Origin: Candidatus Poribacteria bacterium
Lineage (GTDB): Bacteria; Poribacteria; WGA-4E; WGA-3G
Assembly (NCBI GenBank): GCA_009839745.1
Contig: VXPE01000027.1
Coordinates: forward strand, 1-53,348
Reading direction: 5' to 3'
Length of the DNA: 53,348 bases
The notes beneath the pieces were generated by a model. It searched no databases. It was not told the origin of the DNA and saw nothing but the letters and a program-made list of their open reading frames with translations. The position numbers were made by a program, and so were the translations under genes. This document shows positions 11,331-22,799 of this stretch, in pieces (position 1 is the first letter of the stretch; every line of letters starts with the position of its first letter).

Positions 11331-14300
11331 TTGAAGAAAAATAGTATCTTAAAAACTTTTAGCGGTGAGTTACGGAAACTTGCAAGTTTCACAGGTTTCA
11401 CTAAAGTGACGCTTTTCTTACTTGTTGCGGGATATATGGCAGTAGGAGTGAACTTTGATGCCTCTGCTGCGATCACTGGAAAAATTGCGGGTGTCATCAC
11501 CGCTGAAGCAACGAATGAACCGCTGGCAAACGTCACGGTGACGCTCGTCGGAACGAGCAGTACCACGACAACCAACACCGCTGGCTACTATGTTATGACG
11601 AACATCCCACCCGGAAGCTATGATGTGAGGGTTAACCTCACGGGGTATGCGGTAGAGACTGTAGCGGGGACAGGGGTAATCGCCGGTCTTACGACGACGT
11701 TAGACTTTACCCTAAAAAGTGCTGCGGTGCAACTTGAAGGGATAACGGTGACGGCTGTCAAGCCTCTCGTCAAGCGGGACGTTACGCAGACGACGAGGAT
11801 CATTGAATCGGACGATATTGAAGCGATGCCCCGCGATACCGTGAATGGGATTTTACAAACCCTTCCTGGGGTTGCGGTCCTGAACTCAACCGGTTCAACG
11901 CATGTTCGGGGCGGGAGGTCGATGGAGATTCGGTATCTCATTGACGGTATCCCAATTAATAATCCGATCAGCAGAAGTTTGGGTTTGAGTATCGGCACGA
12001 ATTCCCTTGAGCAGATGGAAGTCATCACGGGCGGATTCAATGCGGAACACGGGGACGCACAATCCGGTATTGTTAATCTCATCACGAAGGTCGGAACAAA
12101 TAAATTCTCTGGTAGAATCCGGTACCGGGTCGGACAGTGGGGGACCCATCACGGCGATCCGTTATACGGTCCATGGCTCGATCCAGACAACGGATTTCGA
12201 CCGGTTGCGATTGAACCCTTCAGAGGTATTTTCTTCGGGCAACCCTACGACTATCAAACGCCCTACCGTGGACAGGATGTCACCGTTGCGGAGTTAGCAG
12301 AACGGGAAGGCGATGAACAGGTCGTCTTTACGGAGATTTTCCCGGGCGTATATGCCGACAGGACCCAAAACCCGCTTCAACCGGTGATGGATCCCGAGAC
12401 AGGTGAACCCCAAGTTAACCCCGATACGGGTGAAACAATCATGACACGCCAACCTTACAAGGATGCCGATGGCACTGTTATCGACTATGAGAAGAGACAG
12501 GTTACTTTATTAGACGGTTACGTCGTCGATCTCGAACAGTATAGTGGGTTGTTCAATGACACGAAGAAGTATGATCTATCGCCGAGCCATATCGGTGAAT
12601 TTGCGCTCAGCGGACCAATATGGGGGAATCGTTTAACGTTTGCCGCCTCCAGCCAGCTATCACGAAATCACAGTTTTTTCCCGAATAGCAACGGGACATC
12701 CTATATCTTCCAAGGGAAACTGAAGTTTGAAGTGACACCGAGTATCAAACTCACCGCAAGTGGGCTTTTCAACCGCGGCGAGAGTCATTCCTATGGCGGT
12801 TCGCTCCGCTTTTGGCCCAATGCCGTTCCGGTATCAAATTCAAGCGCGCGGAATACGTCCGTGCGACTCTCACATAATATCAACTCTGGTACTTTCTATA
12901 CGCTGACACTTGGGCAATTTCATCGTTCTGGTGAGGCGCATCAACCCGGAAAGGTGTGGGATCCGTTGGAAAAGACGTTTGGTGAAAACGCATGGGATCC
13001 CGATAAATCCTTTGCACAGAATCAAGAAGAGGGCAGAATCAGAAACCCGCCCCAACAGGCTTACAACGATACAACCTATTTCGTCGCAGGTGACAGTAAT
13101 TCTTGGGGGTCCAGCAGGGCAACAACTTCAATAGCAAGAGCCGATTTTGCCAGCCAAGTTACAGCAAATCACCTGATCCAGACGGGTGTTGAGTTTTTGG
13201 GATACGATCTCTATAATCTCAGCACAACAAATTACGGAAGTTCCAACCTCTATATGGAGTACTATGATGTCCAGCCTCAATCCTTGAGTATGTATCTCCA
13301 AGACAAGATGGAGTATGAAGGCATGATCGTCAACGCTGGCTTACGATATGACCTGTATAATCCATCTGGAGTCTCACCCGCAGACCCGTTTGATCCGCTC
13401 GAACTGAACGACGATGGCACTATTAAATTGGATAAAAGCACCTATAAAGTTGGACTCCCGATCATTAAGAATCCTGTTGAGGCTTCCACCAAACACATGG
13501 TCGCACCGCGTCTGGGTATTTCCTTCCCGGTTACCGACCGATCGAAGTTGCACTTTACCTACGGGCATTACTATCAGATTCCGCGAGGTGATGATCTCTA
13601 CGAAAATCTCAATTTTGATATGCGGGGTGCAATCCGAAGAAGAGGGAACCCTGACTTAGATCCGGAGAGAACCATCGCTTATGAAGTCGGTATCATACGA
13701 CAATTCACCGATGACTTGACGATTGACATCACGGGGTTCACCAAGGATATTGATAAGCTTGTCAATAGCGTGCATGTTGACATCACCAACGATTACAGTT
13801 ACTTCCTCAACGGTGAATTCGAGGGTATGCTCCACGGCATCTATGGGCGAGTGCAGGGATTTGAACTCACGATTCGCAAGTGGCGCACAGGCGGAAGTCC
13901 GGTCTCTGGGATGCTCAGTTACACCTATTCCGTCGCGAAGGGAAAAGGCTCCAGTCGAAATCTGGGCTATCTCACCTACTATCGACAACAGCCTGACGTA
14001 ACGGAAAGCCATCCGTTGGCATGGGATCAACGTCACGTTTTTTCTGGACTGTTGGACATCCAATTGCCCCTTGATGCGGCTGTCAATTTAATTGGCAGAT
14101 ATGGCAGCGGTTTACCCTACACACCGAATCCGAGGGCACCCGTCAAACCCGATATCAACTCGAAGCGTTATCCCGCGACCTATAATGTGGACGCACTTAT
14201 CAGTAAACGGAGTCGCATTGGTGGGTTGACCTATACCTTCTTTGCGGACATTCGGAACATCTTCAACACGAAAAATCTGGACGATCTCTTAGACGCAGTA

Positions 14301-14405
14301 ACATATGACCGATACGGTATCCCGCTTGACAATCAGAAGCATTCGCATCCGTTGTCATGGAGTTCGCCGCGGTTGATTATGATGGGCGTGAGTTTGGATT
14401 TTTAG
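11331..14405 (+). CDS. TonB-dependent receptor with N-terminal carboxypeptidase-regulatory-like domain
   Basis: 1024-residue outer-membrane receptor. A hydrophobic export segment lies at about residues 21-47 (FTKVTLFLLVAGYMAVGV...DASA). A carboxypeptidase-regulatory-like beta domain follows at about 50-135 (GVITAEATNEPLANVTVTL), then the plug (about 145-260; RGGRSMEIRYLIDGIPINNP, and GGFNAEHGDAQSGIVNLIT) and a 22-strand-type barrel. The chain ends in WSSPRLIMMGVSLDF, an aromatic-ended strand expected for outer-membrane insertion. The TTG start at 11331 follows AAGGAG. Likely role: energised uptake of a large ligand, possibly oligosaccharide or siderophore. Copies of its last codons reappear downstream at 14463 and 15250. 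Confidence 0.9.
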   Translation: MKKNSILKTFSGELRKLASFTGFTKVTLFLLVAGYMAVGVNFDASAAITGKIAGVITAEATNEPLANVTVTLVGTSSTTTTNTAGYYVMTNIPPGSYDVRVNLTGYAVETVAGTGVIAGLTTTLDFTLKSAAVQLEGITVTAVKPLVKRDVTQTTRIIESDDIEAMPRDTVNGILQTLPGVAVLNSTGSTHVRGGRSMEIRYLIDGIPINNPISRSLGLSIGTNSLEQMEVITGGFNAEHGDAQSGIVNLITKVGTNKFSGRIRYRVGQWGTHHGDPLYGPWLDPDNGFRPVAIEPFRGIFFGQPYDYQTPYRGQDVTVAELAEREGDEQVVFTEIFPGVYADRTQNPLQPVMDPETGEPQVNPDTGETIMTRQPYKDADGTVIDYEKRQVTLLDGYVVDLEQYSGLFNDTKKYDLSPSHIGEFALSGPIWGNRLTFAASSQLSRNHSFFPNSNGTSYIFQGKLKFEVTPSIKLTASGLFNRGESHSYGGSLRFWPNAVPVSNSSARNTSVRLSHNINSGTFYTLTLGQFHRSGEAHQPGKVWDPLEKTFGENAWDPDKSFAQNQEEGRIRNPPQQAYNDTTYFVAGDSNSWGSSRATTSIARADFASQVTANHLIQTGVEFLGYDLYNLSTTNYGSSNLYMEYYDVQPQSLSMYLQDKMEYEGMIVNAGLRYDLYNPSGVSPADPFDPLELNDDGTIKLDKSTYKVGLPIIKNPVEASTKHMVAPRLGISFPVTDRSKLHFTYGHYYQIPRGDDLYENLNFDMRGAIRRRGNPDLDPERTIAYEVGIIRQFTDDLTIDITGFTKDIDKLVNSVHVDITNDYSYFLNGEFEGMLHGIYGRVQGFELTIRKWRTGGSPVSGMLSYTYSVAKGKGSSRNLGYLTYYRQQPDVTESHPLAWDQRHVFSGLLDIQLPLDAAVNLIGRYGSGLPYTPNPRAPVKPDINSKRYPATYNVDALISKRSRIGGLTYTFFADIRNIFNTKNLDDLLDAVTYDRYGIPLDNQKHSHPLSWSSPRLIMMGVSLDF

Positions 14406-14407
14406 TT

Positions 14408-14513
14408 GTAGCATAGGAGACCGTTAGCCTGTGCCTTGCGTTTTGGATCTTGTGTTCCACTATCATGGAGTTCCTCGCGCTTAGTGATGATGGGCATGAG
14501 TCTGAACTTTTAA
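14408..14513 (+). pseudogene. Duplicated 3'-terminal fragment of a TonB-dependent receptor and a hairpin repeat
   Basis: 14463-14513 encodes SWSSSRLVMMGMSLNF and a stop, almost the same as the end of the intact receptor (SWSSPRLIMMGVSLDF). Only these terminal codons survive. Between the two copies, 14410-14434 holds an AGCATAGG..CCTGTGCC-type hairpin related to the one at 16178-16200. Confidence 0.7.
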
Positions 14514-14540
14514 TTGAATAGGATAATAAGGAGGCGAACG

Positions 14541-14783
14541 ATGCGAATACCGGAAATCGCAGAAGCCATAAAAACGTTAAGTTCGACTGATCGGTCCCAC
14601 TTACGGAAACTCTTGAAAGCGCAAGACGAAGCCGATAAACTGGAAGTATTTCATCAAGTCCTACTGTCGAAAGGCTTAGTTAAAGAAGTGAAGAACCCTT
14701 CTGTCGCTGACACTATTGAACGGCAACTCATTGAGGTCAAGGGGAAACCTGTCTCACAAACAATTATTGAGGAGCGAAAATAG
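14541..14783 (+). CDS. Putative antitoxin of a VapBC-like pair
   Basis: 80 residues from the ATG at 14541, which sits 7 bp after AAGGAGG; the longer frame from 14514 would begin inside the receptor-tail relic. The protein is small and charged, with helical segments (IAEAIKTLSSTDRSHLRKLLKAQ...DTIERQLIEVKGKPVSQTI). I do not see a standard AbrB or ribbon-helix-helix motif, so the antitoxin call rests mainly on its position 3 bp before a PIN-domain gene. This size and order are typical of PIN-toxin partners. Confidence 0.55.
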   Translation: MRIPEIAEAIKTLSSTDRSHLRKLLKAQDEADKLEVFHQVLLSKGLVKEVKNPSVADTIERQLIEVKGKPVSQTIIEERK

Positions 14784-14786
14784 GCG

Positions 14787-15248
14787 GTGATCTACTATAT
14801 GGATAGTAGTTGTCTTGTTAAACGTTACGTCAATGAAATTGGTTCACAATGGGTTCTCAGCATCACTGACCCTGCTGCAGGAAACGAGATTTACACTGTC
14901 CGTATTACAGGGGTTGAGGTTATTTCTGCTGTCTCGCGTCGGAAACGGGAGGGCACAATTGTCTCGGCTGATGCTGCGATGGTAATTGCCACCTTGAAAA
15001 ATGACTTACTGAACGAGTATCAGATCATTGAAGTGACCGAGCAGTTAGTGAATCGGGCGATGATCTTAGCTGAAATTTATGGTTTACGCGGCTTTGATGC
15101 GGTACAACTCGCAGCGGCCTGCGAAGTTCAGGCACTTTGTATCGCAAGTGGAATTCCACCGCTCTCTTTTCTCTCTGCAGATAGGGGACTCAATGCCGCA
15201 GCTGCAGCTGGAGGACTGTCAGTAGATGATCCAAATGACCACCCTTAA
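14787..15248 (+). CDS. PIN-domain ribonuclease, VapC-like toxin
   Basis: 153 residues. The PIN fold acidic residues are visible: Asp6 in YYMDSSCLVKRY, Glu44 in TGVEVISA, Asp105 in LRGFDAVQLAAA and Asp134 in FLSADRGLNAAA. VapC-type toxins cleave tRNA or rRNA. The GTG start at 14787 lies 3 bp after the antitoxin stop, so the two are co-translated. Downstream of its stop the codons NMMGVSLDF-stop (15250-15276) are a third copy of the TonB receptor end, showing the cassette lies inside receptor-derived DNA. Confidence 0.8.
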   Translation: MIYYMDSSCLVKRYVNEIGSQWVLSITDPAAGNEIYTVRITGVEVISAVSRRKREGTIVSADAAMVIATLKNDLLNEYQIIEVTEQLVNRAMILAEIYGLRGFDAVQLAAACEVQALCIASGIPPLSFLSADRGLNAAAAAGGLSVDDPNDHP

Positions 15249-15249
15249 A

Positions 15250-15276
15250 TATGATGGGTGTGAGTCTTGACTTTTA
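15250..15276 (+). pseudogene. Third copy of the TonB-receptor terminal codons
   Basis: The frame ATGATGGGTGTGAGTCTTG reads NMMGVSLDF and stops at TAG, matching the last residues of the receptor ending at 14405. It is a fragment with no upstream homology that I can see. Confidence 0.6.
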
Positions 15277-15295
15277 GGAGAGATAGCGAACTCAA

Positions 15296-16126
15296 ATGAA
15301 ACGTCAAAAAACAGTATCCTTATCAAAGATTTACAACCAAGAAGAAGACTTTTCGGCTGATCTTGCTGATAATCTTGATGTGCTCAGAATTGGTAGTTTT
15401 GAGGACGCTGAAACGGAATCCAACGTAGGCACGCGCAGAGCAGACATTGTCGCTGTCGGTGAAAATGGTACACTCGTTGTCGAAAACCAATTCGGCAAGG
15501 CAAATTGGGATCACTGGGGCAGACTTGAGTCTTACGCGCGCTTGAAGGAAGCCGATGTGGCAGCGTTAGTAGCCGAAAGTTTTGAAGAACTGATGATTGT
15601 TACGTGCAATCTGCGAAATGAAGACAGTAGCATTGATTGGTATCTCATTCAAGCACAGGCAAATACGCATGAGGAACTATACTTTCATCATGTTGCTCGA
15701 CCTGCAATAGATATTCAAACCGAGAGACAACTGGACATTGAATATGATGAATTCTGGGCACCGATTCGCAGGGGTGAACTCGGAAAACTATTTATGGGAC
15801 CGCCTATGTCTCATCACAATAACGGCTGGATGGGTAATAAAACTATCCCTGGTGTAGAAGTGTGGCTTAGACTTACTAACCAGAAATGCTATATTCGATT
15901 GTACTTTCTGAAACCAAACCACTTTGAGCGTCGAGACAAGATTATGCCATTATTTCCGAAATCGGAATACGATTACGAATACAAGGATACACCCACCCGT
16001 ACAACGGTGATTTTTCCTGTCATTAACAAAGGCAAAAACGACCGCGATGATTGGGATGAAATTCGCGAGAAATTAGTTGCCAAGGGCACTGACATCTACA
16101 ATAGAATCAAGGATTCTGATCTATAA
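15296..16126 (+). CDS. PD-(D/E)XK nuclease-like protein with DUF4268-type C-terminus
   Basis: 276 residues. RRADIVAVGENGTLVVENQFGKANWDHWGRLESYA (about residues 48-82) is the core: Asp in ADIV, Glu in VVENQ, with Gln in the usual Lys place, followed by the DHxGRLxxYA helix common in this group. The C-terminal half (about 170-276, VEVWLRLTNQKCYIRLYF...DYEYKDTPTRTTVIF) resembles DUF4268. Such proteins occur as solitary genes next to toxin-antitoxin and RM genes; a DNA-cleaving role is likely but unproven. It follows the VapBC-like pair, 19 bp after the receptor-tail relic's stop. Confidence 0.7.
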   Translation: MKRQKTVSLSKIYNQEEDFSADLADNLDVLRIGSFEDAETESNVGTRRADIVAVGENGTLVVENQFGKANWDHWGRLESYARLKEADVAALVAESFEELMIVTCNLRNEDSSIDWYLIQAQANTHEELYFHHVARPAIDIQTERQLDIEYDEFWAPIRRGELGKLFMGPPMSHHNNGWMGNKTIPGVEVWLRLTNQKCYIRLYFLKPNHFERRDKIMPLFPKSEYDYEYKDTPTRTTVIFPVINKGKNDRDDWDEIREKLVAKGTDIYNRIKDSDL

Positions 16127-16177
16127 CGCGGGTTGCCATCTTTGTAGCAGAATCCGTTAAATGGGGACAGGTATTGT

Positions 16178-16200
16178 AGCATAGACTGTTAGTCTGTGCT
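16178..16200. repeat. AGCATAGACT hairpin repeat
   Basis: AGCATAGACT (16178-16187) and AGTCTGTGCT (16191-16200) form a 10-bp stem with one T-G wobble and loop GTT. The same type of repeat (AGCATAGG...CCTGTGCC) sits at 14410-14434, so the two bracket the VapBC/nuclease cassette. Confidence 0.65.
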
Positions 16201-16239: not shown

Positions 16240-16413
16240 ATGAAAACACAAACTTTTACGGCGAGTGTCTGGAAAGAAGATAACTGGTTTATTGCCCAAT
16301 GTTTAGAGGTCGATATTGCAAGTCAAGGTGAAAGTGAAGAAGGGGCTTTAGACAATCTGGCAGAAGCGTTGGAACTGTACTTCGAGTCCTCAACCGAGTT
16401 TGACAGACTTTAA
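16240..16413 (+). CDS. HicB-like antitoxin without a HicA neighbour
   Basis: 57 residues from the ATG at 16240, preceded by GGAAGGATCG; the in-frame ATG at 16204 falls in the tail of the hairpin repeat. The sequence MKTQTFTASVWKEDNWFIAQCLEVDIASQGESEEGALDNLAEALELYFE matches the HicB_N partial RNase-H-like fold, with the ASQGES turn and the DNLAEALELYFE helix. It lacks a C-terminal DNA-binding domain. HicA, the usual small dsRBD-like toxin, is absent on both sides. The next gene, a 2H phosphoesterase fusion, begins 11 bp later and is the only candidate partner. Confidence 0.75.
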   Translation: MKTQTFTASVWKEDNWFIAQCLEVDIASQGESEEGALDNLAEALELYFESSTEFDRL

Positions 16414-16424
16414 AGAGGTTATGT

Positions 16425-17177
16425 ATGCCATTTGTTGCTGAACTGTATTTTGATCCCTCAACCGAAGAACACCTTCGCGGCGCGTGGCACGCCCTTGATG
16501 AAGCAGGAATTAGTGATTCTATGCCCAAAGGTGGTTATCGTCCACATATATCACTTGGGATTTGCGAGCACCTTGAACTTAATGCGTTTGCGAAGGAGCT
16601 TTCAACGTTTGCGGCGAGCCTTGCGCCATTCCGATTGTCGTTCCCAAACATAAGCATCTTTTCTACATCGGAAGGGTTTGTTTACTGGGGCGCAACAGCC
16701 ACTTCGCAATTGCTGAATCTACACGCGGCATTTCATGAAATCTTCAAAAAATACGCAAAAGAACAAAGGGAATATTACACCGTTGGGCAGTGGGTACCGC
16801 ACTGCACGCTCGCTTTTGGGCTGTCAGAGGACCAGATTACTAAAGCAGTAAACGTTTGTCGGCAAATGGATTTGCCGGTTTCCACGGAAGTCAAAGAGAT
16901 TGGATTGATGGAGGTTTCCCCTACGGGTTGTCAAACACTATTTTTGTTCAGTTTCAAAACGACTGATACCACCGAACTGAATGACGAATTGCGTCCCGAA
17001 TACGACGAAACGATGCTAAAAGATGGCGTTCGTGGGAAATACGCGAAGCAATACGCTGCTGGGACAAACATTGTCCGCCTTGAACCAGATGTTGCTGCTG
17101 CTTTTCCAAGCGAACAAGCCGTTAATGAGGCATTACGATTCGCTTTGAAAGTAATAGAAGGAGCCAAGAATCTATAA
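16425..17177 (+). CDS. 2H phosphoesterase (2'-5' RNA ligase-like) fused to a small antitoxin-like C-terminal domain
   Basis: 250 residues. Residues 1-175 form a 2H phosphoesterase fold with both signature motifs, RPHISLGI (about 39-46) and VPHCTLAF (about 124-131). Such enzymes act on 2',3'-cyclic phosphates or 2'-5' linkages in RNA or nucleotides. Residues about 187-245 (ELRPEYDETMLKDGVRGKYAKQYAAGT, then NIVRLEPDVAAAFPSEQAVNEAL) match a free-standing small protein I recognise from cyanobacterial and uncultured genomes, where it often sits beside toxin genes. The fusion is unusual. It follows the HicB-like gene by 11 bp and precedes a glycosyltransferase by 6 bp. Confidence 0.7.
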   Translation: MPFVAELYFDPSTEEHLRGAWHALDEAGISDSMPKGGYRPHISLGICEHLELNAFAKELSTFAASLAPFRLSFPNISIFSTSEGFVYWGATATSQLLNLHAAFHEIFKKYAKEQREYYTVGQWVPHCTLAFGLSEDQITKAVNVCRQMDLPVSTEVKEIGLMEVSPTGCQTLFLFSFKTTDTTELNDELRPEYDETMLKDGVRGKYAKQYAAGTNIVRLEPDVAAAFPSEQAVNEALRFALKVIEGAKNL

Positions 17178-19033: not shown

Positions 19034-19327
19034 ATGAGAATTATATCACGCAGTGCTTTAAGAGACTTTTGGGCAAGACATCCCAATGCTGAGGGATCTC
19101 TGCAAGCGTGGTATGCTAATGTGAAACGGGCAAAATGGAGAACACCATCTGAGGTCAAAGCAATTTATCGAAATGCCAGTTTCATTGGAAACAACCGGGT
19201 AGTGTTTAATATTAAAGGCAACGCCTACCGTTTGGTAGCGGCAATTAATTATCAATACGGTATTGTTTACGTCCGATTTGTTGGGACACACCAAGCCTAT
19301 AATCGGATTAACGCCGCTACAATCTGA
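19034..19327 (+). CDS. HigB-type mRNA interferase toxin
   Basis: 97 residues. RIISRSALRDFWARHPNAEGSLQAWYANVKRAKWRTPSEVKAIYRNASFIGNNRVVFNIKGNAYRLVAAINYQYGIVYVRFVGTHQAYNRI follows the HigB family order closely, including the WARHP start, the NRVVFNIKGNAYRLV strand pair and the VRFVGTHQAYNRI end with the key His. RelE/HigB toxins cut mRNA on the ribosome. The toxin gene comes first and the antitoxin second, the arrangement typical of higBA. Confidence 0.85.
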   Translation: MRIISRSALRDFWARHPNAEGSLQAWYANVKRAKWRTPSEVKAIYRNASFIGNNRVVFNIKGNAYRLVAAINYQYGIVYVRFVGTHQAYNRINAATI

Positions 19328-19337
19328 GGTGATAACA

Positions 19338-19712
19338 ATGAAAATTAAACCAATTAAGACCGAAGCAGACTATGAAGCTGCGCTAAAGGAAATAGAACAA
19401 CTGTGGGGATCAAATTATGGTTCACCAGAAGGGGATAAACTTGATGTGCTCGTCACGTTGGTAGAAGTTTATGAAGATGAGCATTATCCCATTCCACCAC
19501 CAGATCCTATTGAGGCGATTCTTCACTACATGGAAAATCGAGGGTTATCTGAACGCGATCTTGAACCCTATCTCGGTTCGCATCCATGCGTGTCAGAAGT
19601 CTTGGCTCGTCAACGCAGTTTATCTCTGGACATGATTCGGAAATTGCACATGGAACTTGGAATACCAGCGGATATTTTGGTGCAGCCTTATGCATTACGA
19701 GCGGCTTTATAA
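19338..19712 (+). CDS. HigA-type HTH antitoxin
   Basis: 124 residues from the ATG at 19338, preceded by GAGGTGATAAC; the longer frame overlaps the toxin gene. The N-terminal segment MKIKPIKTEADYEAALKEIEQLWGSNYGSPEGDKLDVLVTLVEVYE is the HigA toxin-binding part. The C-terminal half (LHYMENRGLSERDLEPYLG, then SEVLARQRSLSLDMIRKLHMELGIPADIL) is a Cro/CI-type helix-turn-helix that binds its own promoter. It sits 10 bp after higB. Confidence 0.85.
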   Translation: MKIKPIKTEADYEAALKEIEQLWGSNYGSPEGDKLDVLVTLVEVYEDEHYPIPPPDPIEAILHYMENRGLSERDLEPYLGSHPCVSEVLARQRSLSLDMIRKLHMELGIPADILVQPYALRAAL

Positions 19713-19823: not shown

Positions 19824-22799
19824 ATGAGATTATTACGATTTATATGCTTATCTACAATTTTGATGCTCGTCGCGTTATGGGCGAGCGCAGACGTGGATTG
19901 GAAAGCGCTCGATGTCGGCAACCTATCGTCGGCTATCTATAATACAGCAGTTGTTGGGTTTCCAAGCAACCCTACAGCGAACCCTTCAGGATGGTGGCCC
20001 GCAGGCACAAACGATTCCTATATCTTCGAGGGAAATATCTGGATCGGTGCGAAAAAAGGCGGGGAGATTGGCGTTTCTGCGTCAGACGGCAGGCACAGCG
20101 AAATTTGGCCCACTGACGACGTGCCAGAGGTTATCTCAAACAAACCCGGTGTAACAACAAAAGAAACACCAACGAACCAAGCACTCATGTTCAAATGCTC
20201 TGACACAAACCCTGAGGCGAATAAGGATTTGATTTTGGGTTTAGAGCTCGTGGTCAACGGGTTTCAATGGAGCTACGCACCGCTCTACGATTTCTTTATT
20301 CTGGAGTATAACGTCAAAAATGTTGGGAGCGACACGCTCGAAGACGTATTTATGGCGTTCCGATACGACGTAGACATCTCCAGTAACGAGACAGGCACGG
20401 CGAGTTACTCCGCTGACGACTTCGTTGCCCTTGACCAGACACCAGATGCCCTCAACCCTGTAGATCATCCCAATCGTTACCTCTCTTACGGATTCTCAAA
20501 CGCCTCGGCACCCGGGTATATCGGCTTACGGGTATTGGATGCGTATACCGGGGAGAATGCTGAGGATCCGGCGGCAAAAATCCCTTTCACAGCACACAAA
20601 CGGATTACGATCTCCACCGACCCAACGACGGATGCGGAGATGTACGCGCTTATCAGCACGCCCGGTGTTGAGCCACTCCCCGCAAACTATGATGACCAAC
20701 GGTTCATCCAATCATACGGACCAGTTGAATCGCTTGCCCCTGGAGATTCCTTCAATATTATTATCGCGGTGGCAATCGGTGAAGGGCTTTCCGGTCTACA
20801 AGCCTCTGCAGACTGGGCACAGAAGTTATATGATGATGGCTACGTCGCACCAGCACCGCCGCCTTCACCCCTGGTAACCGCGTATCCCGCCGATAAACAG
20901 GTGACGCTCGTCTGGGAAAGCGAGGGACGTTGGGTTGATGCTGGTGTCAACAAGAGCATCGAAGAATATATTGATGTAACCGATCCAGAGAAAATTTTTG
21001 AGGGGTATCGGGTTTATAGGCGTGGTGTTTCTTATGATGAATCCACGGGCAATCCGGTCGAAGATTGGACGATGCTCATGGAGTTCGATAAACCGAGTGC
21101 TACCGGCAATTTCTTTACTGTGTCGCATGTGGGTAAGCAGTCAGATGCGATCATTGAGGGCATGGGCGATGAGCCTTTCTTCGCGGATTTCTTCAAAAAC
21201 GCCGTCTACGTCATCAAATTCAACTCCAGCACAGATTTTGAAGTGATCAATACGACGCTGTGGGAAGTTATGGCGTATAACCCCGCCTTCCCTGGGAATG
21301 GCGGCGGATATGTCGTCATCAAAGACCCAAATACAGGTGAACCGCATCCCGACGGGACGTATCGTTCCGGGGCTCGAATCTATTTTGGTGGACTCTACGT
21401 GCAAATTAGCGACGGTCCCTCAGGTCCCCCTGTCGCTGGCGACGTTTTCCAAATCGTCTCGACCCCTTCACAAGCACTCGGTGGGGACGCAGGCATCAAG
21501 AATTTTTACACCGATGAAGGCTTAACCAATGGACTTGAATACACGTATGCCGTGACCTCCTATGATACAGGCAACCCAAAAACGGGGTTAATCGCGATGG
21601 AGAGTAGCCAGATTGAGACGATGGTTCACGTTGTTCCACGCGCCCAACCCTCGGGATACCGAGAGCCTACTGCTGATATAGAACAGCACGGACAGGGAAC
21701 CGTTACTGTTGAACCGATGGTGCTTGCGCCTAACAAGGTAACAGGACATCAATACAAGATAGTCTGGTATGGTGCCAAGCAAACGGGGCCCGCGGCATAT
21801 ATCACCGGTCCCGGATATCAACCCCCCGCCTACGAGATCGTCAATATGACGACCGACGAAACTGTTGTTGAGCTACAATCCTTTGATTGGTTCGATCCGC
21901 TCCATCAAGAGGCCGTTGAAGTCCTTTCACCAATGTTCGATGGCATCGTTTTGAAGATAACTGGGGCTAACGTATCCTACGGAACTCCGATGGAAAATCC
22001 GATTAACGACGTTAAACTGACAGCGGGCACAGTGACAGGGTGGGAGGTGAACATCCAATCCCCCGGTTTCGGTGAGAATACCTGGCCGAATATTTTCTGG
22101 GCAACCTACTATCGTCCACACACGTACTCAATTACGTTTGTTGATGATACCCACGTCAAGGTGGTAGATGAAAATACGGGTGAAGAAATTCAATTCAACG
22201 ACCAACGCGCCGCTGGATACGCTATTCTCACAGGCACGGGCTGGAGGGATACATATAACCCAGCAGAAACACCCGGTTTCTTCCGAATCTACATTCGTGG
22301 CGGATATGTCTTTATAAAAGATCCGAACGCTGAAATCTCCGCTGGCGATGTTTTTACTGTTGAAATGGGAGGTATTAGCGCACCACAGGATGAGGATCAG
22401 TTCCTGCTCAATACAAAAGGGGAGACCCTCTCTCCTGAAGACATTGCAGCCGATCTCGGGAAAGTTCGGGTCGTTCCAAACCCCTATTTCGTTACGAACA
22501 GAGCGGTCCTGTCCGAAGGAACAGACAAGATTTTCTTCACGCACCTCCCACCGCAGTGTACGATACGGATTTACACATTAGCGGGTGAATTAGTCCGAAC
22601 CCTTGAACACGAGAGCACTGCCCTTTATAACCCGGGTGAACGGGCACAGGGTGACAAGGGCGGGACAGCGTCATTTGAACTCCTCAATCGCTATAATCAG
22701 GCACTCGCGAGTGGTGTTTATATCTATCATGTTGAAGCCAGAGACGAAAGTGGTGAAGTCGTCGGTAACAAGATCGGCAGATTTGCGATCATTCGATAG
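19824..22799 (+). CDS. Large secreted protein with T9SS-like C-terminal sorting domain
   Basis: 991 residues. MRLLRFICLSTILMLVALWASAD is a Sec signal peptide. The mature chain has no catalytic motif I know; it includes fibronectin-like strands near residues 345-420 (TAYPADKQVTLVWESEG) and long beta-rich segments. The end resembles type A sorting or FlgD-Ig-like domains: VRVVPNPYFV, TIRIYTLAGELVRTL, ALASGVYIYHVEA and GNKIGRFAIIR. Such domains guide export through a type IX-like route in Bacteroidetes and relatives. The next gene encodes a PorV-like shuttle protein, which supports that reading. No other T9SS component is visible here. Confidence 0.7.
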   Translation: MRLLRFICLSTILMLVALWASADVDWKALDVGNLSSAIYNTAVVGFPSNPTANPSGWWPAGTNDSYIFEGNIWIGAKKGGEIGVSASDGRHSEIWPTDDVPEVISNKPGVTTKETPTNQALMFKCSDTNPEANKDLILGLELVVNGFQWSYAPLYDFFILEYNVKNVGSDTLEDVFMAFRYDVDISSNETGTASYSADDFVALDQTPDALNPVDHPNRYLSYGFSNASAPGYIGLRVLDAYTGENAEDPAAKIPFTAHKRITISTDPTTDAEMYALISTPGVEPLPANYDDQRFIQSYGPVESLAPGDSFNIIIAVAIGEGLSGLQASADWAQKLYDDGYVAPAPPPSPLVTAYPADKQVTLVWESEGRWVDAGVNKSIEEYIDVTDPEKIFEGYRVYRRGVSYDESTGNPVEDWTMLMEFDKPSATGNFFTVSHVGKQSDAIIEGMGDEPFFADFFKNAVYVIKFNSSTDFEVINTTLWEVMAYNPAFPGNGGGYVVIKDPNTGEPHPDGTYRSGARIYFGGLYVQISDGPSGPPVAGDVFQIVSTPSQALGGDAGIKNFYTDEGLTNGLEYTYAVTSYDTGNPKTGLIAMESSQIETMVHVVPRAQPSGYREPTADIEQHGQGTVTVEPMVLAPNKVTGHQYKIVWYGAKQTGPAAYITGPGYQPPAYEIVNMTTDETVVELQSFDWFDPLHQEAVEVLSPMFDGIVLKITGANVSYGTPMENPINDVKLTAGTVTGWEVNIQSPGFGENTWPNIFWATYYRPHTYSITFVDDTHVKVVDENTGEEIQFNDQRAAGYAILTGTGWRDTYNPAETPGFFRIYIRGGYVFIKDPNAEISAGDVFTVEMGGISAPQDEDQFLLNTKGETLSPEDIAADLGKVRVVPNPYFVTNRAVLSEGTDKIFFTHLPPQCTIRIYTLAGELVRTLEHESTALYNPGERAQGDKGGTASFELLNRYNQALASGVYIYHVEARDESGEVVGNKIGRFAIIR

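Follow-up and report, generated by a model that had tools for sequence, protein, structure and literature searches.

The window, that is, the whole stretch of 53,348 nucleotides that was analysed, is a draft MAG contig of Candidatus Poribacteria, a sponge-associated group, and its nearest contigs are likewise Candidatus Poribacteria MAGs. The locus under study extends from a gene for a TonB-dependent receptor to a conserved gene for a FlgD/T9SS-like protein, and comprises the following features:

11331-14405, + strand, TonB-dependent receptor gene (CarboxypepD_reg, plug and beta-barrel; Pfam PF13620, PF07715, PF00593)
14348-14405, + strand, tail copy 1, the receptor's intact 3' end
14406-14436, + strand, dispersed REP-like hairpin immediately 3' of the receptor stop, which matches other places of the genome exactly over 31 nt
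14456-14513, + strand, tail copy 2, a decayed receptor end (SWSSSRLVMMGMSLNF-stop)
14541-14783, + strand, vapB-like antitoxin gene, with no Pfam match, whose homologues come first after the receptor
14787-15248, + strand, vapC-like PIN-domain toxin gene (PIN E=1.8e-4, slightly below the Pfam gathering cut-off)
15249-15277, + strand, tail copy 3, a displaced receptor tail eroded to ~28 nt that abuts the vapC stop codon
15296-16126, + strand, nuclease-like gene (PADLOC PDC-S11, E=1.6e-20)
16176-16199, + strand, second REP-like hairpin
16240-16413, + strand, small HicB-like gene (DUF7387; PF24113, E=3.8e-9)
16425-17177, + strand, 2'-5' RNA ligase-like gene (PF13563) fused to a C-terminal 70-aa domain
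19034-19712, + strand, HigBA toxin-antitoxin pair (PD-Lambda-2 A/B by PADLOC; PF09907, E=4.9e-32)
19824-22799, + strand, conserved gene for a FlgD/T9SS-like protein, kept in nearly all complete loci and forming the distal core boundary of the hotspot described below

The last codons of the receptor gene are thus present three times. Copy 2 aligns with copy 1 at 77% identity over 61 nt (14456-14516 versus 14348-14408), copy 3 matches the receptor end at 82% identity over 33 nt (15245-15277), and a search for the tail pattern returns three matches in the window versus 0.00 expected from the shuffled window. These alignments and shuffles bear out the three receptor tails, and their positions, described in an earlier sequence-only reading of this DNA, as well as its placing of a VapB/VapC-like pair between copies 2 and 3. 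The two genes are assigned as a putative vapBC pair, in which a PIN-domain toxin gene lies beside a small antitoxin-like ORF without a Pfam match. The same reading had also included the nuclease in the bracket; this is wrong, because the nuclease-like gene (15296-16126) is downstream of copy 3 and is therefore not enclosed by tails. Moreover, the related hairpin repeat that it had reported at two places does exist at both (14406 and 16176), but it is not specific to the cassette: a pattern search with the hairpin core GTAGCATAG(G/A)CTGTTAG(C/T)CTGTGC gives 54 matches dispersed in the source genome. The hairpin was consequently rejected as a component of the cassette and treated merely as a neighbour.

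The order of events in the window can in part be read from the junctions. The leader that comes after copy 2, TTGAATAGGATAATAAGGAGGC, resembles TTGAGTAAGATAATAAGGAGGC, which follows the receptor in the vapB-bearing relative G023. Since a vapB leader comes after copy 2, this copy is probably a former receptor end, in other words the old receptor/vapB junction. In the window, a new receptor end and the REP-like hairpin stand 5' of copy 2, an added step that is missing from the sister G023.

To place the window among its relatives, 64 distinct loci were gathered, each consisting of the receptor 3' end and the DNA downstream of it. Across these loci the interval from the receptor stop codon to the FlgD/T9SS-like gene is hypervariable, with both borders conserved and contents that vary. 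Specifically, vapBC, the nuclease-like gene (PADLOC PDC-S11), HigBA (PD-Lambda-2) and PemK/MazF-like genes are found in shifting order, together with CopG-type, HicB-like and 2'-5' ligase-like genes and families of unknown function, and the first slot after the receptor is occupied by differing genes in differing genomes. The vapB-like gene lies near the receptor in every locus that possesses it, and copies ~90% identical to the window vapC are found in 3 of 72 other genomes, at this site only. The presence of vapBC on the receptor tree needs at least 11 changes. In addition, the nuclease-like gene adjoins the receptor directly, with an identical leader type, in G005, G007, G011 and G017. The locus is accordingly a hotspot of predicted toxin-antitoxin and defence-type genes that come and go beside the receptor. 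The receptor itself is a core gene, whose 3' end serves as landing site; exactly one receptor was found in 68 of 83 genomes, and two receptors in none. A 38-nt tail pattern searched in 73 whole genomes has a single match per genome at the receptor, plus further ones at the same locus in seven of them (G000, G023, G004, G019, G009, G058, which holds locus L104, and G073, which holds L078), and the reversed control pattern has 0 matches in the same 73 genomes. Beyond the receptor loci a single unlinked tail copy was found, in G006.

A number of individual loci depart from the general arrangement. The unlinked tail of G006 (contig C72:105683-105736, L192; ~54 nt) lies ahead of a homologue of the gene adjacent to the receptor in G001, which suggests a rearrangement via the receptor tail; at the receptor of G001 itself, the FlgD-like gene is absent within 15 kb. 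In G010, G018, G062, G063, G066 and G002, the stop codon of vapB abuts or overlaps the start codon of the nuclease-like gene, and in G065 vapB joins the family c61 in the same way; vapC and tail are absent from all of these, and an exchange of partners by vapB is possible. In G010, L104 and G062, MITE-like gene-free elements with CCCAAGTTGC-type inverted ends are inserted in the vapB leader, between receptor and vapB. The receptor of G034 runs in frame into the next gene, which is c218-like (GIY-YIG-like by eye, with no Pfam match), and in G061 the receptor stop TAG reads TGG, so that the reading frame continues. The 70-aa domain fused to the window 2'-5' RNA ligase-like protein (16425-17177) is a separate gene in many relatives.

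The sequence-only reading had proposed that the receptor 3' ends of relatives be searched for the same repeats, and tail repeats do lie beside accessory genes in 8 of the 64 receptor loci. In seven of these loci the displaced tails are found behind vapB or vapBC (G000, with two copies, G023, G004, G019, G009, L104 and L114) and in one, L078, behind HigBA, where the HigBA pair occupies the slot at the receptor end and the receptor tail then follows. Their lengths range from ~28 nt (copy 3 of G000, G023) through 58 (copy 2 of G000), 73 (G019) and 87 nt (L104) to 107 nt or slightly more (G004, G009) and 119-121 nt (L078), and the tail of L114 starts as those of G004 and G009 do and is truncated in its 3' part. 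The gene after the tail is the nuclease in G000, G023 and L078, c61 in G004, G009 and, judged by its leader, L104, and c1 in G019. For all three of these downstream genes, the junction between tail and gene is the same as the junction between receptor and gene in tail-less genomes, with matching leaders. The only receptor stretch found as a fragment in the hotspots is residues 986-1024, that is, the C-terminal 39 residues. The tail of G019 is identical to its own receptor end at 70/73 nt, and a local duplication would explain this case equally well.

Among the gene ends compared, displaced tails appear to be peculiar to this gene. Among 1373 ORF ends of the collected loci, no duplication of a tail only was found elsewhere, the other matches being tandem or domain paralogues, and a general trait of Poribacteria gene ends was therefore rejected; in L078, a match at 2561 that was tail-like at first sight belongs to a tandem array of lipoprotein-like paralogues. 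The 19 regions of other TonB receptors that served as a control (a twentieth, L196, has no read-through to the receptor end) differ from it in their C-termini and lack tail copies over the ~5.7 kb downstream, and a generic feature of TonB receptors was rejected on this basis. Nine long-read chromosomes with the locus contain the hotspot and in none is a tail present, all tail-bearing loci being on draft MAG contigs; this absence is weak evidence, since a rate of 8/64 predicts only about one tail in nine loci.

Several observations bear on the source of the displaced tails. The motif LDDKKH is common to the displaced tails of L078 and G009 and to the retained part of that of L104, with LDDKKY in G004, and it occurs in none of ~60 receptor ends; in addition, YDQY is common to L078 and G009, two of the three full-length tails. 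Since this signature is missing from every receptor checked, it would be the extra tail that is carried by the cassette. In a maximum-likelihood tree of the last 107 nt, four displaced tails fall on one side of a branch and 60 receptors on the other, with an SH-aLRT of 82.6, below the usual threshold. The displaced tails of L078, G004 and G009 have their nearest match neither in their own receptor nor in that of a sister. In particular, the receptor end of L078 is nearest to that of its sister G071 (0.95), whereas its displaced tail is nearest to other genomes (0.84) and reaches 0.81 with its own receptor, which indicates that the gene end is resident and that the extra tail arrived with the cassette. 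This does not support the earlier suggestion that the 3' end of the receptor is rebuilt at each insertion, since in L078, the clearest case, the gene's own end is vertically inherited and the displaced copy is foreign.

Two tails, from two species of genus g13, have a composite structure and change from cassette-type to resident sequence. At 15 diagnostic sites between -85 and -52 the tail of L104 is of g1/cassette type, and at -24, its single distal diagnostic site, it is of g13 type, the mosaic resting on that one site. The tail of L114 opens like that of G009 and is then identical to its own receptor for ~30 nt; G009 and L114 also have ~20 nt of pre-tail spacer in common, across genera, with differing vapC breakpoints. 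Moreover, the identity of vapB between genera is 88.8% versus 74.0% for the receptor (20 pairs), the corresponding values within genera being 88.6% and 81.2%, and the two identities are barely correlated (r = 0.23, 66 pairs). Taken together, the displaced tails, the contrast between vapB and receptor and the patchy distribution of vapBC show that the unit reaching from vapB to the tail has been transferred between species and genera, and they suggest that crossovers took place inside the tail. Carriage of vapC as phage or plasmid cargo was rejected: no relative was found in viral contigs, and plasmid PIN proteins (from Thermus, Calothrix and other plasmids) are distant, with 44% identity or less. 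Likewise, the vapC genes of G036 and G037 (47 and 41%) were rejected as the same system, their context being unrelated and the tail absent.

A probable explanation of these data is that the cassette brings its own copied right homology arm and is placed by homologous exchange at the 3' end of a core gene. The receptor 3' end would form the border of a recombination hotspot, and the toxin-antitoxin cassette (vapBC, or HigBA in one relative) would sit right behind the receptor stop and terminate in its own copy of the last ~120 bp of the receptor, with the receptor gene serving as homology arm on the left and the copied tail as that on the right. When DNA carrying receptor, cassette and tail enters a cell that holds the receptor followed by a gene Y, by whatever route, crossovers presumably of RecA type in receptor and tail would insert the cassette between the receptor and the resident Y; the receptor would stay whole, and Y would be preceded by a displaced tail that is often mosaic. 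Tails would erode afterwards. Because receptor and copied tail flank the cassette, two ordinary crossovers suffice and homology downstream is not needed. In the window, one such insertion would have yielded tail 3, and a later, similar event would have put the new receptor end and the REP-like hairpin before tail 2. The first tail copy is likely to have been made by homology-facilitated illegitimate recombination, a mechanism demonstrated in E. coli conjugation (PMC3240628) and put forward for the effector arrays of T6SS (PMC5361080). A cassette with its own arm would explain why the position stays constant, why the gene downstream varies, why tails are mosaic and why the distribution is patchy.

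Homology-facilitated illegitimate recombination might also have acted repeatedly, each insertion being independent, with the receptor as anchor and a random joint in the resident tail, in which case every displaced tail would be a resident tail. The mechanism is known, as cited above, and both the variable tail lengths and the near-identity of the G019 tail with its own receptor end agree with it, but the tails of L078, G004 and G009, for which the nearest match is neither their own receptor nor a sister's, the common signature and the spacer that G009 and L114 have in common across genera all argue against such a series of events, which we regard as unlikely. A different origin, put forward in the sequence-only reading as its second alternative, is recombination between tandem receptor genes, the tails being deletion scars of a decayed, ancient second receptor that left its last codons. 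A relic paralogue could indeed have had a signature that is absent from living receptors; against this, a single receptor is present in all 68 genomes that gave a match, residues 986-1024 are the only receptor part in the hotspots, with no internal fragments, and one type of tail stands before various downstream genes with receptor-like junctions. Tandem scars were rejected on these grounds as very improbable. That the tails are a product of assembly or chance is hardly credible: every tail-bearing locus is on a draft MAG contig, but the tails are present in eight separate bins, the shuffle expectation is 0 and, because they diverge by 10-25% from the resident end (G019 excepted), most of them are not collapsed exact repeats.

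The first alternative of the same reading, in which the receptor 3' end is an integration site, is supported as regards the place, with varied genes after the stop and the tail behind both vapBC and HigBA, and is not supported as regards a phage-like mechanism. Site-specific integration would require an attB-like site at the receptor 3' end, cassettes with an attP-like tail and, supplied in trans, a recombinase of the tyrosine or serine family. In agreement with this, insertion is always at one base, directly past the stop codon, and the tails of two different cargos are alike in maximum length (~107-121 nt in L078, G004, G009 and L114) and in signature. However, neither the window ORFs nor the tested hotspot representatives include a recognisable recombinase family, the slot itself contains only vapBC or HigBA and no element-borne integrase, and tail length varies from 28 to 121 nt with no constant core, which erosion could explain in part. 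The differing switch points of L104 and L114 also count against a fixed core, because homologous crossovers predict them and a fixed core does not. Integration of this kind is thus decidedly unlikely. The more specific idea of an integron-like system, in which the receptor tail is the dedicated recombination site of tiny toxin-antitoxin cassettes served by a recombinase in trans, is still less probable.

Returning to the cassette with its own homology arm, the copied receptor tail (the last ~30-120 bases) probably lets homologous recombination place genes at the same spot across species and even genera. If true, toxin-antitoxin and defence-type genes would be mobile without mobile-element machinery, using the copied end of a core gene as homology arm, and would be able to land beside that core gene in any relative, whatever its downstream neighbour. 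Moreover, as displaced tails mark insertion events, the order of insertions, the switch points and the donor genera become directly readable in a hotspot that lacks an integrase, where such direct reading is usually impossible. The search signature suggested for other genomes is a duplication of a 3' end only that flanks small genes.

Gene 3' ends are known targets of integration: phage 21 and e14 at icd, as well as elements that integrate at tRNA ends, target the 3' end of a gene and preserve it by a copy borne on the element. The receptor tails resemble these systems in both respects and differ from them in that no integrase is recognised, tail lengths are variable and the cargo is shorter than 1 kb. 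In integrons, gene cassettes enter at the first position and build arrays of small genes, often toxin-antitoxin. Entry at the first position and an array of this kind are found here as well, but the site is the tail of a protein gene and no IntI is recognised locally.

A likeness in structure is also offered by the mORF elements of fungal mitochondria at atp6, atp9, cox2 and nad3 (Beaudet 2013, PMC3630166; Allomyces atp6), in which an ORF comes with a duplicated C-terminus, the gene is functional and the displaced tail lies downstream. These elements bring a foreign gene end and displace the native one, their mobility being driven by a homing endonuclease (PMC3630166). In L078, by contrast, the gene end is native (G071, 0.95) and the displaced tail is foreign (0.84), and no homing endonuclease was found in the slot, the insert being a PIN-type vapC with vapB, or HigBA. 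The arrays of displaced C-termini of Rhs/CDI and T6SS effectors (Jackson 2009, PMC2935791; Kirchberger 2017, PMC5361080) have in common with this locus the addition of a module at the 3' side, the pushing of old sequence downstream, sequential insertion and one-sided homology. Unlike in those arrays, no new function is acquired by the receptor C-terminus, the displaced sequence simply duplicates the same tail, and toxin-antitoxin and defence-type genes take the place of effector-immunity pairs as cargo.

Finally, earlier work has described hotspots that lack an integrase and owe their activity to recombination at the adjoining core genes (Oliveira et al. 2017, PMC5635113), and the receptor locus is one of this kind: genes turn over fast between two core genes with no recognisable mobile element, no recombinase was recognised among the window ORFs and hotspot representatives, and homologous recombination has left its signs at the border, here in the mosaic tails of L104 and L114 and the transfer of vapB. 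The difference from the hotspots described so far (PMC5635113) is that individual cassettes carry a right arm copied from the 3' end of the left core gene, and for this reason insertion is possible without homology to the downstream neighbour. It is this copied right homology arm, borne by the cassette, that would be new relative to known integrase-less hotspots.
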